From the NCBI GenBank assembly GCA_947474565.1, contig CANJIS010000010.1, positions 1 through 64,000 of the forward strand: a stretch of DNA of 64,000 nucleotides. The letters are read 5' to 3'. This DNA is from Alphaproteobacteria bacterium. Lineage in GTDB: Bacteria > Pseudomonadota > Alphaproteobacteria > Micropepsales > Micropepsaceae. Under the pieces are notes generated by a model. It ran no database searches, was not told the origin of the DNA, and was given only the letters and a program-made list of their open reading frames with translations. The translations under genes and the position numbers were made by a program. Shown here piece by piece: positions 8,841 through 55,861 of the stretch. Numbering within the stretch: position 1 is the stretch's first letter; every line of letters begins with the position of its first letter.

Positions 8841-9219
8841 GTCAGATGGCCGGGTGACCGCGGGCAGGCCCAACTTCAAAGTTGTGTTTGTTCGAGGAAA
8901 GTCCGGGCTCCACGGAAAGACGGTGCCGGTTAACGGCCGGCGGGGGCGACCCCAGGGATAGCGCCACAGAAATGACACCGCCTAAGACCCTAAAGGTCCG
9001 GCAAGGTTGAAATGGTGCGGTAAGAGCGCACCGCGTTCCTGGTAACAGGAGCGGCTAGGCAAGCCCCACCGGGAGCAAGACCAAATAGGGACGGCACGTG
9101 ATGTTTTCCGCATCGCCGTCCGGGTCGGTCGCGTGAGGTGTGGGGTAACTCACATCCCAGAGGAATGGTCATCCAGTCGCGCAAGCGATGGACAGAACCC
9201 GGCTTACAGGCCATCTGAC
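8841..9219 (+). ncRNA. rnpB: RNase P RNA (bacterial type A)
   Basis: The catalytic RNA that matures the 5' ends of tRNA. An 11-bp perfect P1 helix joins 8841-8851 (GTCAGATGGCC) with 9209-9219. The conserved CR-I segment GAGGAAAGTCCGGGCTCC follows the 5' part, the GGTAACAGGAGCGGC region and AGGGACGGCAC are in the middle, and the 3' conserved block GACAGAACCCGGCTTACAGG precedes the closing helix. The length of about 380 nt is typical. It sits eight bases after the amidase stop codon and is followed by a GC-rich hairpin at 9236-9273. Confidence 0.96.
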
Positions 9220-9235
9220 ACTTTTAAACCCGTCA

Positions 9236-25387: not shown

Positions 25388-26667
25388 TGGGCGAGACCTT
25401 AAAATTGCGCGTCAACAACCAAATTCCCGCTTACCGCACCGGCCTGGTGGCCGCGCTGGATGTCGGCACATCGAAAGTCGCCTGCGTCATTGGCCGCGCC
25501 GAACAGGGCACGCTCAAGGTGCTGGGCAGCGCGCTGCGCGAAGCTGCGGGCCTGAAGGCCGGCACCGTCACAAGTCTGGACCTGGCCGAGGAAAGCATCC
25601 GCGATTGCGTGGCCGCCGCGGAAAATCACGCCGATGCCCGCATCCAGAATGTGCTGATCTCGGTCAATTGCGGCGCGCCCGTCAGCGTCACCTCCCGCGC
25701 TGTGATGGCGCTGGATGGCGCCTTGGTGTCCGATGGCCATTTGCGTCAGTTGCTGTCCGAAGGCCGCGTCAAATGCCGGCTGGAAGGCCATGAAATCATC
25801 CAGAGCGCGCCCACCGCCTATGTGGTGGATGAAGCGCGCGGTGTGCGCGATCCCTCCGGCATGTTCTGCCAGCGTATTGGCGTGGCCATGCATGCTGTGG
25901 CGGTGAAACCGTCACCGCTCGCCAATCTCCGGCTGGCGGTGGAGCGTTGTCATCTGAACGTGGTGGGCTCGCTGTTCGGCGCCTATGCCAGCGGCCTTGC
26001 CGTGCTCACCGAAGACGAAAAGCAGGTCGGCGCCACCGTGATCGAAATGGGCGGCGGCTGCACCTCCATCGCTGTGTTTGTGGAAGGCCATCTGGTGCAT
26101 GCCGATGTCGTGCCGCTGGGCGGTTTTTCCGTCACCCATGACATTTCGCTGGGCCTGTCGGCGCCGCTCTCTGCCGCCGAGCGCATCAAGACCCTGTTCG
26201 GCGCGGCGCTGGGCGACATGGAAGCCGGGTCTGATGTCATCAGCGTGCCGCAGATGGGCGAGGAGGGGGAAAGCAGCGCCTTGCGCGTGCCCCGCTCCAT
26301 GCTCACCCGCATCATCCAGGCCCGCCTGACCGAGATTTTCGAAGAGGTGCAGAAGCGGCTTCAGGCGTCGGGTTATGACGCCGTGGCGGGCCGCAGAGCG
26401 GTCCTGACCGGCGGGGCCTGCCAGCTGGCGGGAACCCGCGAACTGGCGGCGCGCGTCTTGAACAAGCAGGTGCGAATTGGCCGGCCCCAGCCTTTCCCGG
26501 GTCTGGCCGCTGCCTCGGCGGGGCCCGATTATGCCACCGCCATCGGCCTTCTGATGGCGGGCGCGATGCTGCCGCCGGAGATTTTGAATCCCGAACTGGC
26601 CCTCCAACCGGCGGTCCGTGAAGGCAAAAGCTGGCTCAGCCGGTTGACCGGCCGGTGGCTGGAGTGA
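25387..26667 (+). CDS. ftsA: Cell division protein FtsA (actin-like FtsZ membrane tether)
   Basis: A 426-residue actin-fold ATPase that anchors FtsZ filaments to the membrane. Visible are the phosphate-1 motif ALDVGTSKVACVIG, the SHS2-like insertion domain (about 95-180), the phosphate-2 region VIEMGGGCTSIAVF, the adenosine motif VLTGGACQLAGTRELA, and a C-terminal amphipathic tail (GKSWLSRLTGRWLE), the membrane-targeting sequence. It starts on the ftsQ stop (TAATG) and is followed by an 84-base gap before ftsZ. Confidence 0.97.
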   Translation: MGETLKLRVNNQIPAYRTGLVAALDVGTSKVACVIGRAEQGTLKVLGSALREAAGLKAGTVTSLDLAEESIRDCVAAAENHADARIQNVLISVNCGAPVSVTSRAVMALDGALVSDGHLRQLLSEGRVKCRLEGHEIIQSAPTAYVVDEARGVRDPSGMFCQRIGVAMHAVAVKPSPLANLRLAVERCHLNVVGSLFGAYASGLAVLTEDEKQVGATVIEMGGGCTSIAVFVEGHLVHADVVPLGGFSVTHDISLGLSAPLSAAERIKTLFGAALGDMEAGSDVISVPQMGEEGESSALRVPRSMLTRIIQARLTEIFEEVQKRLQASGYDAVAGRRAVLTGGACQLAGTRELAARVLNKQVRIGRPQPFPGLAAASAGPDYATAIGLLMAGAMLPPEILNPELALQPAVREGKSWLSRLTGRWLE

Positions 26668-26751
26668 TTCAACAATAGTAGTGCGAATCAGTTGGGCGAT
26701 TCTGGCGTGCGCAAGAGGGTGACGGGCAAAAGTCACTGAGGAGAATCTAAG

Positions 26752-28224
26752 ATGGCGATCAACCTGCAAGTACCCCCGACCAAGGAATTGCGTCCCCGCA
26801 TCACCGTTCTCGGTGTCGGCGGCGCCGGCGGCAATGCCGTCAACAACATGATCGAGGCCGGCCTCGAGGGCGTGGACTTTGTGGTGGCCAACACCGACGC
26901 CCAGGCCCTGGCGCAATCCAAATGCGAACGCCGCATACAGCTTGGCGCGGCCACCACCGAAGGGTTGGGCGCAGGCGCCCAGCCTGAAGTCGGCCGGGCC
27001 GGTGCCGAAGAATCCATGCCCGAGATCATGGAGCAGCTTCAGGGCTCGCACATGGTGTTCATCGCCGCCGGCATGGGCGGCGGCACCGGGACCGGTGCTG
27101 CCCCCGTCATCGCCCGCGCGGTGCGGGATGCCGGCATCCTGGTGGTCGGCGTCGTGACCAAACCGTTCGCGCTGGAAGGCGACCGCCGCATGCGGGTGGC
27201 CGAACGCGGCATCACCGATCTTCAGTCCTTCGTCCACACCCTGATCGTGATCCCCAACCAGAATCTGTTCCGCGTCTCCAATGACCGCACCACCATGTCC
27301 CAGGCGTTCGCCATGGCCGATGAAGTGCTGCATGCCGGCGTGCGCGGCGTTACCGATCTGATCGTGATGCCGGGCTTGATCAATCTGGATTTCGCCGACA
27401 TCAAGTCGGTGATCTCGGAAATGGGCAAGGCAGTGATGGGTACCGGCGAAGCCGAAGGCGAAGACCGCGCCCAGCGCGCCGCCGACATGGCGATCTCCAA
27501 CCCGCTGCTGGACGATGTCAGCATGAAGGGCGCCAAGGGAGTTCTGATCAACATTACGGGCGGTCCCGACCTGATGCTGTTCGAAGTGGAACAGGCCGCC
27601 AACCGCATCCGCGCGGAAGTCGATCCTGACGCCAACATCATCTTCGGCAACACCATCCTGGACGATATGGAAGGCCGTATCCGGGTATCGGTGGTGGCCA
27701 CCGGCATTGATGCTGAGCTTATGAAGATGCCGGAAAAGAAGATCACCCCCATCCGCGCGAACGTCCGGCCCGCCTTCACGGTGGAAACGCAGCGCCCTGT
27801 GTCTGCGCAGACCACCGTCAATCCGGTTGCCCGCCAGGTCGAACAGCTTGCCAACGAACTGAACGCCACCCCGGCGATAAACGCGGACGAGGCCTATATT
27901 CTGGGCGGCGAGGATGCGCCGATCGTGGGTGCTTCCTATTCGGCTACGGAGACCGTCCGCGCCACGTCCGAAATGCCGCTGGCGCCGCAGAACCTGCAAA
28001 AGGAAGAAAAGAAGAGCAGCGGCTGGGGCTTCTTTGGGCGCAAGAAACCGGCCCATGACCTTCGCCAGGAACCGCGTCCTGTGGCCCAGGCCACCCGCGC
28101 TCCGGCACCCCGTCCCACTGTGGAAGAACAGCCAGCTCCCCCCAATGGTGAGGATCTGTTCCCCGAGCATAGCCGCGACGAACAGTTCGAAATCCCGGCC
28201 TTTCTCCGCAGGCAATCGAATTAA
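26752..28224 (+). CDS. ftsZ: Cell division GTPase FtsZ
   Basis: A 490-residue tubulin homologue forming the Z ring. The GTPase domain shows [13 protein letters not shown], the tubulin signature [13 protein letters not shown] (about 107-119), the T7-loop region [11 protein letters not shown], and [17 protein letters not shown]. After about residue 320 there is a long variable linker, then the conserved C-terminal peptide EIPAFLRRQ that binds FtsA and other tethers. A GAGGAGAA ribosome site precedes the ATG. The 84-base ftsA-ftsZ gap may hold an extra promoter, as often found, but no clear one was seen. Transcription probably ends at the hairpins 28267-28384. Confidence 0.98.
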
Positions 28225-28237
28225 GCGGTAACAACCT

Positions 28238-28264
28238 GTCATTCCCGCGATAGCGGAAATCCAG
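28238..28264. repeat. Degenerate copy of the dispersed TGTCATTCCCG palindrome
   Basis: TGTCATTCCCGCGATAGCGG followed by AAATCCAG is an imperfect version of the hairpin repeat found intact at 34333 and 57632. It lies 14 bases after the ftsZ stop and directly precedes the first terminator hairpin. Confidence 0.6.
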
Positions 28265-28266
28265 CA

Positions 28267-28296
28267 AAAAGGGCGGCCTTGGCCGCCCTTTTCTTT
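28267..28296 (+). terminator. Rho-independent terminator after ftsZ
   Basis: AAAAGGGCGGCC pairs with GGCCGCCCTTTT around a TT centre, followed by CTTTT. The A-rich 5' side makes it potentially bidirectional. It probably ends the long dcw transcript. Confidence 0.8.
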
Positions 28297-28315
28297 TGAC
28301 AAGCGAAGCTTGTCA
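28297..28315. repeat. Short perfect hairpin between the two terminators
   Basis: TGACAAGC, loop GAA, then GCTTGTCA: an eight-base perfect stem joining terminator one to the second repeat module (which begins GTCATCCCC). It looks like the junction of two abutting copies of the intergenic element. Confidence 0.55.
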
Positions 28316-28358
28316 TCCCCGGCGAGCAGCGCAGCCGCGAGGAAAGGGGATCCAGCAG

Positions 28359-28384
28359 AAAAGGACGGCTGTGGCCGTCCTTTT
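28359..28384 (+). terminator. Second terminator-like hairpin, 16 bases before lpxC
   Basis: AAAAGGACGGC pairs with GCCGTCCTTTT across a short loop. It resembles the terminator at 28267 and follows a second GATCCAGCA-ending repeat segment. It ends only 16 bases before the lpxC start codon, leaving no room for a promoter, so it may act as an attenuator or be read through. Confidence 0.7.
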
Positions 28385-28400
28385 CGCATATAAAAAGCCC

Positions 28401-29252
28401 ATGAACCGCCACACCATCGCCCGTGACGCATCCGCCTCCGGCATCTGTCTGCATGCCGGCAGCGTGGTGACCATGACATTGTCACCGGCGCCGCCCGGGC
28501 AGGGCGTGGTGTTTGTGCGCGCCGATCTGGAGGGTGTTCGGATTCCCGCCCGCTATGACCTGGTGGGGGAAACAAAGCTGGGCACAGTGCTGCAAAAAGA
28601 TGGCGCCAGCGTGGGCGTGGTCGAACATCTGATGGCGGCGGTGGCGGGCGCGGGGCTTGATGATCTCACCGTCACGCTGGACGGGCCGGAGCCGCCTATT
28701 CTGGACGGCGATGCGCTGTCCTATCTCACGTTAATTCAGCAGGCGGGTCTGAAAGATCAGAACACGCCGCGCGACGTCATCGAAGTTCTCAAGCCGGTGC
28801 GCGTCACCCAGAAGAATGCCACCGCCAGCCTGATGCCGGCGGACGCTTCCACCTATGATTTCGAAATCGAGTTTCCAGCGCCCGCCATCGGGCGGCAGGT
28901 TTTTCATCTGGATTTTTCGCCCGCGAATTTTGCGGCGGCCATCGCGCCCGCCCGCACGTTCGGGTTTCTCAAGGAACTGGAGGGCTTGCGTGCCCTCAAT
29001 CTGGCGCGCGGCGCTTCGCTGGAAAACACCCTGGCGCTGGACGAGTGCGGGGTGGTGAATGCCGGGCTGATGCGCTTTCCCGACGAATTCGTCCGCCACA
29101 AAATCCTGGACGCCATCGGCGACATGGCGCTGGCGGGCAGCCCCCTGAAGGCCCGGTTCCATGGCGTCCGATCCGGCCATGCCACCAATAACGCCTTGCT
29201 GCGTGCGCTTTTTTCCGATCCCACGGCCTTCCGCCGGATCACCCTTTCCTGA
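28401..29252 (+). CDS. lpxC: UDP-3-O-acyl-N-acetylglucosamine deacetylase
   Basis: A 283-residue zinc deacetylase, the committed step of lipid A synthesis. Motifs: HTIARDASASGICLHAG at the start, the zinc histidine in VEHLMAAVAGAGLDDL, LDGPEPPILDGDA, FARTFGFLKELE-like PARTFGFLKELEGL, and the C-terminal zinc site RHKILDAIGDMALAG plus the catalytic HGVRSGHATNNALL. The frame is open from 28296, but that would run through both hairpins; 28401 matches the family start. No strong ribosome site is visible. It follows ftsZ as in many proteobacteria. Confidence 0.96.
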   Translation: MNRHTIARDASASGICLHAGSVVTMTLSPAPPGQGVVFVRADLEGVRIPARYDLVGETKLGTVLQKDGASVGVVEHLMAAVAGAGLDDLTVTLDGPEPPILDGDALSYLTLIQQAGLKDQNTPRDVIEVLKPVRVTQKNATASLMPADASTYDFEIEFPAPAIGRQVFHLDFSPANFAAAIAPARTFGFLKELEGLRALNLARGASLENTLALDECGVVNAGLMRFPDEFVRHKILDAIGDMALAGSPLKARFHGVRSGHATNNALLRALFSDPTAFRRITLS

Positions 29253-44674: not shown

Positions 44675-44819
44675 GAAACCGGAAGACTATGCACCGTCTT
44701 GACGGAGTCAATCGATGTTGACGCCCCAAAAGCCTATTTTTGCCGCAGTGCCGCAAAATGCTGGAACCAGAGCCGGATAGGGCCGTTTGCGAATTGTATC
44801 TTCAGCAGAGCCGGGCCCC

Positions 44820-45866
44820 GTGAAAATCGCACAAATTGCACCTTTGGTCGAAAGTGTCCCGCCGCGCCTCTATGGCGGTACGGAACGTGTCGTATCATGG
44901 TTGACGGAAGAACTTGTGGCCCAGGGCCATGACGTGACGCTGTTCGCCAGCGGCGATTCGCGCACAGCGGCCGAGCTGCACCCCATTGTGCCCCGCTCGC
45001 TGCGGCTGGAAGGCATTCGCAACTCCCTGCCTTACAACATCATCATGCTGGATCAAGTCGCGAGCCGGATGAATGAGTTCGATGTGCTGCATTTCCACAT
45101 CGACTTTTTCCACTACCCGCTTTTCCGCAGCATGGCACACAAAACGCTGACCACATTGCATGGCCGCCAGGACTTGCCGGAATTGCCCGACATTTACCGC
45201 GCCTTTCCGCATATGCCGCTGGTGTCCATTTCCAACCATCAGCGTTTGCCGGTGCCGCCGGTCAATTGGATGGCGACAGTCTATCACGGCTTGCCGGAAA
45301 AGCAGTTCCGGCTGGGTGCGGGCGAGGGCGGCTATCTGGCGTTCCTGGGCCGCATCTGTCCCGACAAGGGGCCGGTGGAAGCGATTGAGATCGCGCGCCA
45401 GGCTGGCATGCCTCTCAAGATGGCTGCCAAGGTCGATCCCGCCGATCAGGAATATTATGACGATGTGGTCGCGCCGCTGATCGCGCGCAGTCCGCATGTC
45501 AAATTCATCGGCGAAATTCATGACGGCCAGAAGCAGGAATTTCTGGGCAAGGCCCGCGCGCTTCTGTTCCCCATTGGCTGGCCGGAGCCGTTCGGCCTGG
45601 TGATGATCGAAGTCATGGCTTGCGGCACGCCGGTGGTGGCGTTCCGCTGCGGCTCGGTGCCGGAAATCATGGAAGACGGATTGACCGGCTATGTCGTGTC
45701 CGATGTGCCCGCCGCGGTGAAGGCCGTTGGCCTGCTCGATCGGCTTTATCGTCCCTCTATCCGCGCCCGCTTTGAAGAGCGGTTCAGTTCGCGCGCCATG
45801 GCCCGGGATTATCTCAAGATTTATGCGCGTCTGGCGGACTGTCAAAGCCCCGCCGCCGCGGCCTGA
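44820..45866 (+). CDS. Family 4 glycosyltransferase
   Basis: A 348-residue GT-B enzyme. The N-terminal half has the acceptor-side motif RLYGGTERVVSWLTEELVAQGH and FHIDFFHYP; the C-terminal half has the donor site FLGRICPDKGPVEAIEIARQ, VKFIGEIHDGQKQEFL, and the E-x7-E motif PIGWPEPFGLVMIEVMACGTPVV (key EPFGLVMIE). The acceptor and sugar are unknown. The GTG at 44820 begins VKIAQIAPL, the usual family start; a TTG at 44787 is less likely. A 26-base gap leads to the glucosidase gene, so the two probably work together in glucan or trehalose-type metabolism. Confidence 0.85.
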   Translation: MKIAQIAPLVESVPPRLYGGTERVVSWLTEELVAQGHDVTLFASGDSRTAAELHPIVPRSLRLEGIRNSLPYNIIMLDQVASRMNEFDVLHFHIDFFHYPLFRSMAHKTLTTLHGRQDLPELPDIYRAFPHMPLVSISNHQRLPVPPVNWMATVYHGLPEKQFRLGAGEGGYLAFLGRICPDKGPVEAIEIARQAGMPLKMAAKVDPADQEYYDDVVAPLIARSPHVKFIGEIHDGQKQEFLGKARALLFPIGWPEPFGLVMIEVMACGTPVVAFRCGSVPEIMEDGLTGYVVSDVPAAVKAVGLLDRLYRPSIRARFEERFSSRAMARDYLKIYARLADCQSPAAAA

Positions 45867-45892: not shown

Positions 45893-48103
45893 ATGGAGGC
45901 GAAGTCCCTCCCCGGCTTGATCCCTGACCCCGGCTCGATTGGCGATGGGCCGCAGGCGAATGACGAGCTTGCGTCCTTTTACATTCAGGCCACGGAATCG
46001 ATTCAGGAGCGCTGGTCGCGCACGCTCAAACAGGGCGATACCTTCGCTTTGTTCAACACGCTGGGCGATATCATCGAGCCAGGCGCCACGCCGGGCGGAT
46101 TGTTTTACAACGACACGCGCCATCTTTCCGGACTGCAGCTGCTGATCGACGGCCAGCGGCCGCTGCTTCTGTCTTCGGCGGTAGAGAATGACAATGTCGT
46201 TCTCACCGTCGATCTGGCCAATCCTGATATCTACCAGGACGGCAAAATGGTGCTGCCGCGCGAGACGCTGCATGTGCGCCGTTCCAAATTTCTCTGGGAC
46301 GGTACCTGCTATGAGCGCGTTGCGATCCATAATTTCGGGCCTGAGCCGCAGAGATGCTTTATCTCGCTTGGCTTTGCCGCGGATTTCGCGGATCTGTTTG
46401 AAGTGCGCGGGCTGACCCGCCCGCATCGCGGCGCTGAAAGCGTTGAGCGCGACACTCAAAGCATTACCTTCCGTTATCAGGGGCTGGACGGCATTCAGCG
46501 CTGCACCCGCATCCATTTCGATGCCGTGCCGGCGCGGTTGTCCGAAAGCGAGGCGATCTTCCGCTTTGACCTGAAAGCAGGCGAGCGCAAGGCGCTGGTG
46601 ATGACGGTATGCTGCACCCAGCATCAGACTTGCGGCGAGAATTTTTCCGAGCCCTATCGCGCCGCCAGCCGGGCCGCCCAGCGCGCCGCCAGTCTGGGCG
46701 GCAATGTCACGAGTTCGAATGTGCTGGCCAACCGCATGCTGCATCGGGCCGGCGCCGATCTCACCATGCTGATCAACGAGACCGACAAGGGCCCTTATCC
46801 TTATGCCGGCACGCCTTGGTTCTCCACGCCCTTCGGCCGGGACGGCATCGTGACCGCGCTGGAAATGCTCTGGATTGATCCTTCCGTAGCCCAGGGCGTG
46901 CTGCAATTCCTCGCCGCCACCCAGGCGACGCAGAAGGATAACACCGCGGACGCTGAGCCCGGAAAGATTCTGCATGAGATGCGCCGCTGCGAGATGGCCA
47001 ATCTGGGCGAGGTGCCGTTCGGCCGCTATTACGGCAGCATCGATTCCACGCCTTTGTTCGTGTTGCTGGCGGCGCGTTACTACGACCGCACCGGCGACCA
47101 GAAAATCATCCGCGCCCTGTGGCCCAACATCCAGGCGGCGCTGAATTGGATCGACCAGTATGGCGACCGCGACGGCGACGGCTTTGTCGAATATTACCGG
47201 GAAAGCGAAAACGGCCTGACCAATCAGGGCTGGAAAGACAGCCAGGATTCCATCTTTCACGCCGATGGCAGGCTGGCGCCGGGCGCCATCGCTTTGTGCG
47301 AAGTCCAGGCCTATGTCTATGCCGCCAAGCAGGGCGCCGCCGGGCTGGCGCGCATGCTGGGTGATCACGCCCATGCCGATGCGCTGGCCGATGCTGCCGA
47401 AAAGCTGCGCCAGCGTTTCGAGGATAAATTCTGGTGCGAAGAAATCGGCACCTATGCCGTTGCGCTGGATGGCGACAAGAACCCCTGCCGGATTCGCACA
47501 TCCAATGCCGGCCAGGTGCTGTTCTGCGGCATCGCCAGCGCCGATCGCGCGGCGCGAGTTGCGGAATGCCTGATGACGCCGGAAATGTTTTCGGGCTGGG
47601 GCGTGCGCACGGTGGCCGCTGATAGTCCGCGCTTTAATCCTATGTCCTATCACAATGGCTCGATCTGGCCGCACGACAACGCCCTGATCGCGCTAGGCCT
47701 GGGCCGTTACGGCTTCAAGCGCGCCGCCGGGGCCATCTTCTCCGGCCTGTTCGACGCAGCGGGCCATATGGATCTGATGCGCTTCCCCGAATTGTTCTGC
47801 GGCTTCCCCCGCCGCCGTGGCGCTGCCCCGACACTGTATCCGGTGGCTTGTGCGCCCCAGGCCTGGGCCAGCGCGGCGCCCTTTGCGCTGCTGGAAGCCT
47901 GTCTGGGCATCGTCTACGACCATCAGCGCCGGGAATTGCGCTTCCACAATCCGGTGCTGCCCCGCTTTCTGGAGGAAATCCGCATCCGCAACCTGTCGCT
48001 GGACGGGGCTTCGGCGGATTTGCGCTTGCGCCGCAACGGCTCCGGCACCGAAGTGGCGATCCTGGCCCAGCAGGGCGACATCTCCATTCGGATCGCCCAA
48101 TAG
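45893..48103 (+). CDS. Amylo-alpha-1,6-glucosidase / glycogen-debranching-type protein
   Basis: A 736-residue protein with an N-terminal beta-sandwich (about 35-230, [28 protein letters not shown]) and a C-terminal (alpha/alpha)6 barrel (about 270-700) with [58 protein letters not shown], and [22 protein letters not shown]. The acidic pair in the GWKDSQDS and WPHDNALIA regions are candidate catalytic residues. This two-domain form is found in bacterial GDE_N_bis/GDE_C proteins, usually called amylo-alpha-1,6-glucosidases. Substrate is not proven. It has no signal peptide, so acts in the cytoplasm. It follows the glycosyltransferase closely. Confidence 0.85.
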
Positions 48104-48144: not shown

Positions 48145-49497
48145 ATGCCGGACGCAATGAGCGCAGAAAATCCCAACCGCGCCGTCGAAACGGTCTTGCC
48201 CGAAGACCTGGAACTGACTCCGCAGCCGGTCGAAGCGCCGCCGCCGGACGTCTTGCCGGAACAGGCCGCTGAAGACCGCTCTGCCTTCGCTTTCCTGACT
48301 GTTTTCCGTCACCGCAATTACCGGCTGTTCTTCACCGGCCAGCTTATCTCGCTGATGGGCACCTGGATCACCAGCGTCACCCAGGGCTATCTGGTCTACA
48401 GTCTCACCCAGTCGCCCTTTCTGCTGGGCGTGGTGGCCTTCGCCGGCTCTGTGCCGGTGTTCTTCTTCTCAGCCTTCGGCGGCATGATCTCGGACCGCTT
48501 TGATCGCCGCCGCCTGCTGCTGCTTACACAATCGCTTTCCTGCGTGGAATCGGCGGTGCTGGCGATCCTGACTCTCACCCATACGATCCAGGTCTGGATG
48601 GTGGTGGCGCTGGCGTTGTTTCAGGGGTTCGTCAACGCCTTCGACGTGCCCATCCGCCAGGCCATGACGGTTGAGATGGTGGGACGGCAGGATTTGCGCC
48701 ACGCCATCTCGCTCAATTCCATGATGTTCAACCTGGCGCGCGTTATCGGGCCGCCGGTGGCCGGCATCCTGATCGCGCTGGTGGGCATCGGCATCTGCTT
48801 CGCGCTGGACGCACTGTCTTATGGTGCGGTGATCATCTGTCTTGGCTTGATGGCGTTTGCGCCCCGTCCGGTTGTGAAACACGCACAACCGCTGCAAGCG
48901 GTGCTGCAAGGCTTTGTCTATGTCTGGCAGACGCGGGAGATAAGGCTGTCGATTTTCCTGATCGCCTGCTGTTCGGCGTTCGGCGCGGCCTACCTCACCT
49001 TGCTGCCGGCGGTGGCGCGCGACATCCTGCACCAGGGCAGCGAAGGGTTGGGCTTTCTGTATGGCGCGGTGGGCGCCGGCGCGCTCCTGGGCGCCTATGT
49101 CCTGGCGCGGGTGCCGGACCGGCATTTGCTGGCGACGCCGGTGATTGCCGCTTCAAGTTTTGGTCTGTCGCTGCTGGCTTTTTCCCAGAGCCAGGTCTTC
49201 TGGCTGTCATTCATTCTGCTGATGCCCTGCGCCTTCAGCCTGATGCTGCTGGGCGGCTCGACCAATTCCATCATCCAGCTTCTGTCACGTGACGATATGC
49301 GCGGCCGGGTGGTGGCGCTCTATGCCATGGGCTTTCTGGGCATGATGCCCTGGGGCTCGCTTGTCCTGGGCTTTATCGCCGAGCATCTGGGCACCGGCAG
49401 CGCGGTCGCCATCGGCGGCGGCGTCTGTATCCTGGCGGCGCTGCTGGTATGGCTGGCCCGGCGCGATGCGCACGGGGAATTGGAAAGTATGGGATAA
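48145..49497 (+). CDS. MFS transporter (MFS_3/EntS-like)
   Basis: A 450-residue major facilitator with a roughly 50-residue acidic N-terminal tail followed by 12 predicted transmembrane helices. The first core segment is FRHRNYRLFFTGQLISLMGTW, typical of the MFS_3 subfamily, and the loop 2-3 motif GGMISDRFDRRRLLL matches motif A. Later segments include VGRQDLRHAISLNSMMFNLARVIGPP. Relatives export siderophores or drugs, but no substrate can be assigned. An in-frame ATG at 48157 is an alternative start. It lies 41 bases after the glucosidase and may be in the same transcript; its end is convergent with ssrA. Confidence 0.85.
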   Translation: MPDAMSAENPNRAVETVLPEDLELTPQPVEAPPPDVLPEQAAEDRSAFAFLTVFRHRNYRLFFTGQLISLMGTWITSVTQGYLVYSLTQSPFLLGVVAFAGSVPVFFFSAFGGMISDRFDRRRLLLLTQSLSCVESAVLAILTLTHTIQVWMVVALALFQGFVNAFDVPIRQAMTVEMVGRQDLRHAISLNSMMFNLARVIGPPVAGILIALVGIGICFALDALSYGAVIICLGLMAFAPRPVVKHAQPLQAVLQGFVYVWQTREIRLSIFLIACCSAFGAAYLTLLPAVARDILHQGSEGLGFLYGAVGAGALLGAYVLARVPDRHLLATPVIAASSFGLSLLAFSQSQVFWLSFILLMPCAFSLMLLGGSTNSIIQLLSRDDMRGRVVALYAMGFLGMMPWGSLVLGFIAEHLGTGSAVAIGGGVCILAALLVWLARRDAHGELESMG

Positions 49498-49529
49498 GGA
49501 AGGCGGTGGGGGTTCGTACGCTGTCGCTA

Positions 49530-49868
49530 CGGACCTATTGCCCGGCGCCACACTGACTTCAGCGCCGGCATATAAGTGGGGAGTTTCTGTTGCCCGGTAC
49601 TCCCCGAACCGCGCTTGACTAACCGTAGTTAGGCAGCGAGGGCCATTTCATTATCGTTGGCACCTAAACAATAGTCCGATGACGGCGGGACCATACCGGG
49701 CAAAAGAACAGTCTTTACACGTCCGTCGATCCTGTTTCGCCCCCACAAAAACCCACTTGGTAATGGGCTTATGGTGGAGGCGCCGGGTACTGCCCCCGGG
49801 TCCGGGCCGCTTATTACACAGTCGTTTATCGCCATAGCCGGTTGCCCGGCTCGACTAATATAGGTCCG
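49530..49868 (-). ncRNA. ssrA: tmRNA, circularly permuted two-piece gene
   Basis: Read on the minus strand, the acceptor piece comes first and ends in GCGCCTCCACCA (3' end at 49772), then a 27-base intervening loop (49771-49745), then the coding piece from 49744 starting GGGGGCGAAACAGGATCGAC. The seven-base acceptor stem GGGGGCG/CGCCTCC pairs the two pieces. The tag reading frame at 49661-49629 is GCC AAC GAT AAT GAA ATG GCC CTC GCT GCC TAA, giving ANDNEMALAA. A pseudoknot-like GGGGAGT/ACTCCCC follows, and a nine-base helix CGGACCTAT (49868-49860)/ATAGGTCCG (49538-49530) closes the whole. This permuted arrangement is the known alphaproteobacterial form. Outer ends are estimated from the closing helix. 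Confidence 0.93.
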
Positions 49869-49905
49869 ACGCGTTAATTTTCCAAATCTCGGAATCGCGG
49901 AAATC

Positions 49906-50700
49906 ATGAAGCAATATCTTGAGTTGATGGAACTGGCCCTGGAAAAGGGCGTCGAAAAGCATGACCGCACCGGCACCGGTACGCGGTCCATTTTCGGCCA
50001 CCAGATGCGCTTCGACCTTTCGCAAGGCTTTCCGCTGGTCACCACCAAGAAGGTGCACCTGAAATCCATCATCATTGAGCTGCTCTGGTTCCTGCGCGGC
50101 GAAACCAATGTCCATTGGCTGCAAGAGCGCGGTGTCACCATCTGGAATGAATGGGCCGATGCCAATGGCGAGCTGGGGCCGGTCTATGGCGCGCAATGGC
50201 GCTCCTGGCCGGGTGAACGCGATGGCACTATCGACCAGATCAGTCATCTGATCCGCGATATCAAAACCAATCCGGATTCGCGCCGGCTGATCGTTACGGC
50301 CTGGAACCCGGCCGACATTCCCAAAATGGCGCTGGCGCCGTGCCATTGCCTGTTCCAGTTCTATGTCGCGGACGGCAAACTGTCCTGCCAGCTCTATCAG
50401 CGTTCGGCGGATATCTTTTTGGGCGTGCCTTTCAATATCGCGTCGTATGCGCTGCTCACCATGATGGTGGCGCAGGTAACGGGATTAAAGCCCGGCGATT
50501 TTGTCCATTCCTTCGGCGACGCCCATCTTTATCTCAATCATCTCGATCAGGCGCGCGAACAACTCAGCCGTAAGCCTTTTGCGTTGCCGCGGATGAAATT
50601 GAATCCGGCGGTGAAGGATATCTTCGAATTCAAGTTCGAGGATTTCACGCTGGAGGGCTATCAAGCCCACCCAGCCATCAAGGCGCCTATCGCCGTTTAG
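49906..50700 (+). CDS. thyA: Thymidylate synthase
   Basis: A 264-residue enzyme converting dUMP to dTMP with methylene-THF, the same length as E. coli ThyA. Motifs: [39 protein letters not shown] in its key TTKKVH residues, [11 protein letters not shown], the nucleophile Cys146 in [11 protein letters not shown], the dUMP-binding [20 protein letters not shown] and [15 protein letters not shown]. It is divergent from ssrA, with only 37 bases between the closing helix of the tmRNA and its ATG. It consumes methylene-THF, the same cofactor pool used by MetF. Confidence 0.98.
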
Positions 50701-55180: not shown

Positions 55181-55861
55181 TCAGCGGCACTCCAGCGTCA
55201 CGCTCTGGCGGTCTGCTTCCGGTGCGACCCGGCTTTGGCGAATCGAGCGGTCCCGGCCACAGGTCCATTCCGCGACATAATCCTTGGCGCAGCCGAAGGC
55301 AGGATCGCCGATCACACGGGTATCGATGGTGTAGCGGCAGCTGTTCCTGCCGTCGCAGGTAGAGGCCAGATCGGCGGTACGATTGCCCTGCGGCTGGCGG
55401 CAGGTACCGCCATAGGTGCCGGAGACGACCCGGATACCGTCGTCACCGCCGCCGCCATGGCCGAAGCGATCATCGCCTCTGTCACGATCGCGAGAACGGT
55501 CGCGGGAATCATTGCGCCTGTCATCCGGCCGGTCGCTGACAGGACGCAAGGAGGAAAGCCGGTCGTCGAAACCCAGCCGGTCCAGCTTGGGCACATCCTG
55601 GTTCACGATGATGCAGCGGCCCCGGAAATTGTCATCCTCGCAAAGCTCCCAGGTGCCGATCACGCGCACGCTGGACGTGCGATCATCGAAGCGCAGCTTT
55701 GCCGTGGCGCCATCGACGGGCCATTGGTTGCCGCGATAATTGTCGTCCTGGAAAAGAATGATTTGCGGGCGGTTCTGCGCCTGCACGCTCGCACCGATTG
55801 TCACAACCGCGGCTGCCAGAAGGGTGCCCAGCACAAAGATGCGACGTATGTTTTTCTCCAA
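55181..55861 (-). CDS. Secreted beta/gamma-crystallin domain protein with lectin-like C-terminal domain
   Basis: A 226-residue exported protein. After the signal peptide (ends near QAQ, residue 29), residues about 33-110 form two Greek-key motifs (IILFQDDNYRGNQWPV; WELCEDDNFRGRCIIV), each ending in a calcium-binding-type triplet (FDDRTSSVR and FDDRLSSLR). A linker of about 30 residues made almost only of Asp and Arg follows (key repeats DRSRDRDRGDD), then a cysteine-rich domain (GTYGGTCRQPQGNRTADL, TCDGRNSCRYTI, FGCAKDYVAEWTCG) that resembles galactose/rhamnose-binding SUEL lectins. It is probably a calcium-dependent carbohydrate binder on the cell surface or outside. Confidence 0.8.
   Translation of the reverse strand: MEKNIRRIFVLGTLLAAAVVTIGASVQAQNRPQIILFQDDNYRGNQWPVDGATAKLRFDDRTSSVRVIGTWELCEDDNFRGRCIIVNQDVPKLDRLGFDDRLSSLRPVSDRPDDRRNDSRDRSRDRDRGDDRFGHGGGGDDGIRVVSGTYGGTCRQPQGNRTADLASTCDGRNSCRYTIDTRVIGDPAFGCAKDYVAEWTCGRDRSIRQSRVAPEADRQSVTLECR

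Follow-up and report, generated by a model that had tools for sequence, protein, structure and literature searches.

The window, by which we mean the whole stretch of 64,000 nucleotides that was analysed, carries a gene (ssrA) for a circularly permuted tmRNA on its minus strand. We consider it nearly certain that this locus is the one detected ssrA of the source genome, that it is orthologous to the permuted tmRNA gene of alphaproteobacteria, and that it is complete and ordinary. An Rfam covariance search with the alphaproteobacterial tmRNA model, which the initial annotation had proposed as a check, matched RF01849 over the full model length at 49889-49575 (minus strand) with 255.1 bits and an E-value of 5.6e-73, compared with a curated cut-off of 50 bits. 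The general permuted tmRNA model, RF04321, matched at 49833-49629 on the same strand with 141.8 bits. Independently, ARAGORN called the permuted form 'tmRNA*' at 49866-49538 (minus strand) with the tag ANDNEMALAA. A single RF01849 match was detected in the source genome (2.18 Mb in 39 contigs, 99.84% complete), and the 20 plasmid records searched contained only partial tmRNA matches.

Both ARAGORN and the RF01849 alignment with its structure place the acceptor part, including its CCA, ahead of the coding part (Table 1), as had been read initially from the letters. Other anatomical details of that reading were borne out as well: the CCA is encoded, exactly 27 bases separate it from the G with which the coding piece opens, and a seven-pair acceptor stem spans the break by pairing of 49782-49776 with 49738-49744. 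This stem includes the pair G3-U70 (49742/49778); a G-U third acceptor-stem pair is the one used by alanyl-tRNA synthetase. The 54-base stretch around the cut (49790-49737) folds better than its own shuffles (z = −3.86), with a nine-pair outer stem, consisting of the acceptor stem plus two pairs, and a nine-pair inner stem within the segment expected to be excised. The initial annotation had also mentioned a nine-base closing helix, which it left undefined, and either of these stems may have been meant. No intrinsic terminator was found in 49480-49960.

Table 1. Coordinates of ssrA, its parts and the neighbouring genes in the window
Feature	Position	Strand	Evidence and remarks
sspB, ClpXP adaptor, 171 aa	44159-44674	−	PF04386, 138.7 bits (cut-off 27); PDB matches 2nys, 2qaz, 2qas
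Glycosyltransferase	44787-45866	+	Pfam; between sspB and ssrA
Glycogen-debranching-type enzyme	45893-48103	+	Pfam; between sspB and ssrA
MFS transporter	48145-49497	+	Pfam; between sspB and ssrA
Coding piece	49538-49744	−	3' end (49538) from ARAGORN, RF01849 match stops at 49575; first G at 49744
Possible 3' hairpin	49539-49570	−	Fold no stabler than shuffles (z = −0.66)
Tag reading frame ANDNEMALAA with TAA	49629-49661	−	ARAGORN, RF01849 alignment
Segment between CCA and coding piece, 27 bases, expected to be removed	49745-49771	−	Coordinates from RF01849 alignment; removal expected from the family
Acceptor piece	49772-49850	−	RF01849 alignment and structure; encoded CCA at 49774-49772; 5' end putative
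Promoter-like TTGGAA-17-TATATT	49857-49885	−	Consensus scan; overlaps the 5' end of the RF01849 and ARAGORN spans; putative role
thyA, divergent from ssrA	49906-50700	+	PF00303, 422.9 bits

The predicted structure was examined in an alignment of 58 sequences, consisting of the window and 57 of 84 located loci; 11 of 95 loci had not been located by the pattern, and 27 were manually omitted so that the alignment stayed small. The pairs counted were those of RF01849 placed on the window, a set that contains no pseudoknots. Overall, 91.5% of the paired cells could pair, compared with 43-50% after a shift of the partners by one to three columns; both members had changed in 18 of the 34 pairs. All 58 sequences have a paired acceptor stem, with its G-U pair, and a paired T arm. 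The two pieces are joined by helix 2, with 99% of cells paired and both-sided changes in four of five pairs, and by helix 3, with 84.5% of cells paired and both-sided changes in all six. The structure is weaker in helix 1, where 75% of cells can pair, and at columns 56/178 of helix 4, a pair that forms in 19 sequences and is lacking in 39.

Partners of the tmRNA are encoded in the same genome: SmpB on contig 25 (194.7 bits against a cut-off of 27) and ClpX (650.8 bits). A decayed or non-functional tmRNA remnant is an extremely improbable reading of the locus: nothing was found in its favour, and against it stand the facts that smpB is present, that the gene is the only copy found, that its tag frame and acceptor stem are intact, and that its pairs covary in relatives. 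Direct results are the gene and its order, a structure that pairs and covaries, the tag, and the finding that the genome encodes smpB, clpX and sspB. For transcription, cutting, charging, tagging and degradation, the family suggests the following course. One precursor would be transcribed from the minus strand, from which tRNA-processing enzymes would excise the 27 bases that follow the encoded CCA; the resulting acceptor RNA and coding RNA would stay together by base pairing. The tmRNA would be charged with alanine via the G3-U70 pair and enter stalled ribosomes together with SmpB, where alanine plus ANDNEMALAA would be appended to the unfinished protein. The tagged protein would then be degraded by ClpXP, aided by SspB. 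The window also contains a full-length RNase P RNA of bacterial class A at 8842-9222 (RF00010, 329 bits); RNase P is the enzyme expected to trim tmRNA.

The RF01849 and ARAGORN spans both take in sequence upstream of the first hairpin. All 32 same-genus loci measured had a TATAT/TATAA box at the corresponding interval, where letter shuffles would give 1.6; among 106 loci from the class, 93 had one, against 11.7 expected. A CCTT-like box at a fitting distance upstream was less regular, with 22 of 32 same-genus and 49 of 106 class loci, and the ssrA of the window has TTGGAA in its place. These sequence patterns suggest that RF01849 opens with ~35 positions that mostly represent promoter and not RNA, which annotators using the alphaproteobacterial tmRNA model may wish to consider. 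Because 49885-49857 resembles a promoter, the 5' end of the tmRNA probably lies near 49850, inside the bound of 49868 given by the initial annotation.

The encoded tag begins with ANDN and ends with the hydrophobic tripeptide LAA, followed by a TAA stop. We compared it with the tags of 37 same-genus genomes, the source genome included, of which 33 had an RF01849 match. All 33 loci were readable with ARAGORN and a pattern search, and all encode ten residues: ANDNEMALAA in 26, ANDNAMALAA in three, and ANDNEMVLAA and ANDNQMALAA in two each. A class sample of 124 loci comprised the best-scoring matches listed from 370 matching genomes plus 17 class members and leans to high scores. In this sample, the tag had 12 residues in 71 loci, ten in 28, 13 in 12, 11 in eight, and 15 to 25 in four; the 124th locus (L212) was unread by a stricter pattern script and gave 14 residues in the other pattern search. 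The stricter pattern also left nine same-genus loci unread, and the same-genus tally uses ARAGORN and the looser search. According to the 2025 tmRNA database paper, which counts 11,946 unique permuted tmRNA sequences, ten is the commonest tag length over all bacteria (PMC11915505).

Thus, the hint that the tag is unusually short was right only in a weak sense: 12 residues is the commonest length in the class sample, but ten is the second commonest, is the rule in the genus and leads over all bacteria. The remark that methionine stands where aromatic residues are common fared similarly. Methionine is the sixth residue in 33/33 same-genus tags and in 10 of 28 tags of ten residues from the rest of the class, and an aromatic residue directly follows ANDN in only 33 of 114 class tags with this start (28 Tyr, five Phe), so that its absence is common. 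We also rejected the idea that the tag is an oddity, since such a tag is standard in the genus and 8 of the 124 class loci outside it encode exactly ANDNEMALAA. The string had no match in the main texts of the papers searched. ARAGORN made no call in 18 of the 33 loci from the genus and in 12 of the 124 from the class. An odd gene form was dismissed as the cause, since the pattern search reads a tag in all 30; the misses are a matter of the detector.

Four of the 37 same-genus genomes had no RF01849 match, either in the main search or in a repeat with laxer filters; smpB is present in all four. A DNA search revealed a partial ssrA running into a contig end in two of them (G029 and G026). In the other two (G002 and G031), neither ssrA nor sspB was found, the ssrA matches of the DNA search being at chance level. 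For both, the likely explanation is an assembly gap that covers the linked genes. G002, with about 10 contigs and 95% completeness, may instead have undergone a real loss.

The initial annotation had placed the SspB gene about 5 kb away, and sspB indeed lies 4.86 kb from the ARAGORN end of ssrA, on the same strand (Table 1). Within the lineage, the gap between the two genes ranges from almost nothing to 7.5 kb inside a kept thyA-ssrA-sspB-fumC frame. Its contents vary among relatives, with opposite-strand genes present alone or in combination: the MFS transporter, the debranching enzyme with the glycosyltransferase, all three, or none. The gap in the window measures 4.9 kb because all three opposite-strand genes are present. 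We considered and rejected a mobile insertion at ssrA, the intervening genes being metabolic and transport genes and the repeats of at least 18 bases around the region looking, among the matches listed, like chance. Elsewhere in the window, the protein encoded at 55181-55861 (226 residues) has a beta/gamma-crystallin domain (PF00030, 42 bits), and an 887-residue frame at 25912-28575 (minus strand), which had no Pfam match at E 0.001, may encode a large secreted protein or be a wrong frame.

To the extent of the stretch fetched, the tmRNA lay upstream of sspB on the same strand in all 96 loci in which both were found, the window included; these 96 contain at least two duplicates (L007/L057 and L024/L075) and two loci with a wrong ARAGORN tag (L084 and L107). 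Fetching the tmRNA with flanks of about 1.5 kb gave 56 loci, eight of them shorter, and 30 of the 56 contained sspB. Conversely, a tmRNA was not found in 15 of 80 loci fetched around sspB, 12 of which held less than 3.7 kb upstream, while L060, L063 and L083 held 7.2-10 kb. All 28 class genomes with ten-residue tags have sspB, in 25 of them no more than about 2.5 kb from the tmRNA; in G076 it is about 460 kb away, and in G138 and G183 it is on another contig. Linkage of ssrA and sspB is common, yet not universal, and can help annotators to find either gene. We found no paper on this linkage in the literature searched, of which coverage was partial; PMC4131195 treats the neighbours of smpB, and SspB does not occur in its text.

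The proximity of adaptor and tag had led the initial annotation to propose comparing the two for co-variation. We aligned 115 SspB sequences with known tags and built a tree from 82 of them, comprising 13 of the 46 lineage sequences, 29 others with ten-residue tags and 40 with tags of 11 or more residues. A genuine permuted tmRNA could still have undergone a functional shift, in which the ten-residue tag with its methionine brings the SspB and ClpX sites nearer to each other and SspB has adapted accordingly. Several columns differ in the lineage SspB: residue 33 is Ile or Val in all 46 lineage sequences and Pro in 37 of the 40 with longer tags, and in 15 of the 29 other ten-residue-tag sequences. 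Tag length, moreover, changed at least seven times on the tree. Only one independent pair, however, falls on supported branches of the 82-sequence tree, so an association of any SspB column with tag length cannot be told apart from shared ancestry, and E. coli works with the same total tag length (PMC8512704). We therefore regard such a shift as unlikely. It is equally doubtful, in our estimate, that alphaproteobacterial tag length switched several times between 10 and 12-13 residues and that SspB adapted at every switch. If it were so, the lineage would offer a natural test of the minimum spacing of the SspB and ClpX sites on the tag. An ordinary permuted tmRNA is thus the reading that we retain. 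On its own, the finding is minor: an uncultured lineage has a complete copy of a well-known rescue RNA.

Keiler, Shapiro and Williams are said to have described a two-piece tmRNA in Caulobacter in 2000. The gene in the window resembles this alphaproteobacterial permuted form (RF01849) in gene order, the G3-U70 acceptor stem, the encoded CCA, the segment expected to be removed, the predicted pairing between the pieces, and a tag that starts with ANDN and ends with LAA. The Caulobacter tag is longer than the ten residues encoded here, and the E. coli tmRNA gene is not permuted. In the E. coli tag AANDENYALAA, AANDENY binds SspB and ALAA binds ClpX (PMC8512704). With its uncoded alanine, the window tag likewise has 11 residues and shares the ALAA end with that E. 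coli sequence; residues 5-7 are NEM instead of ENY. The SspB of the window matches the PDB entries 2nys, 2qaz and 2qas, three distinct sequences, over 171, 115 and 139 residues, respectively, and the alphaproteobacterial proteins have a C-terminal VVSLD-FRKK tail that is common to the aligned set. The gene order differs in that sspB lies three genes from ssrA in the window, whereas it is closer in most other genomes of the class that were checked.
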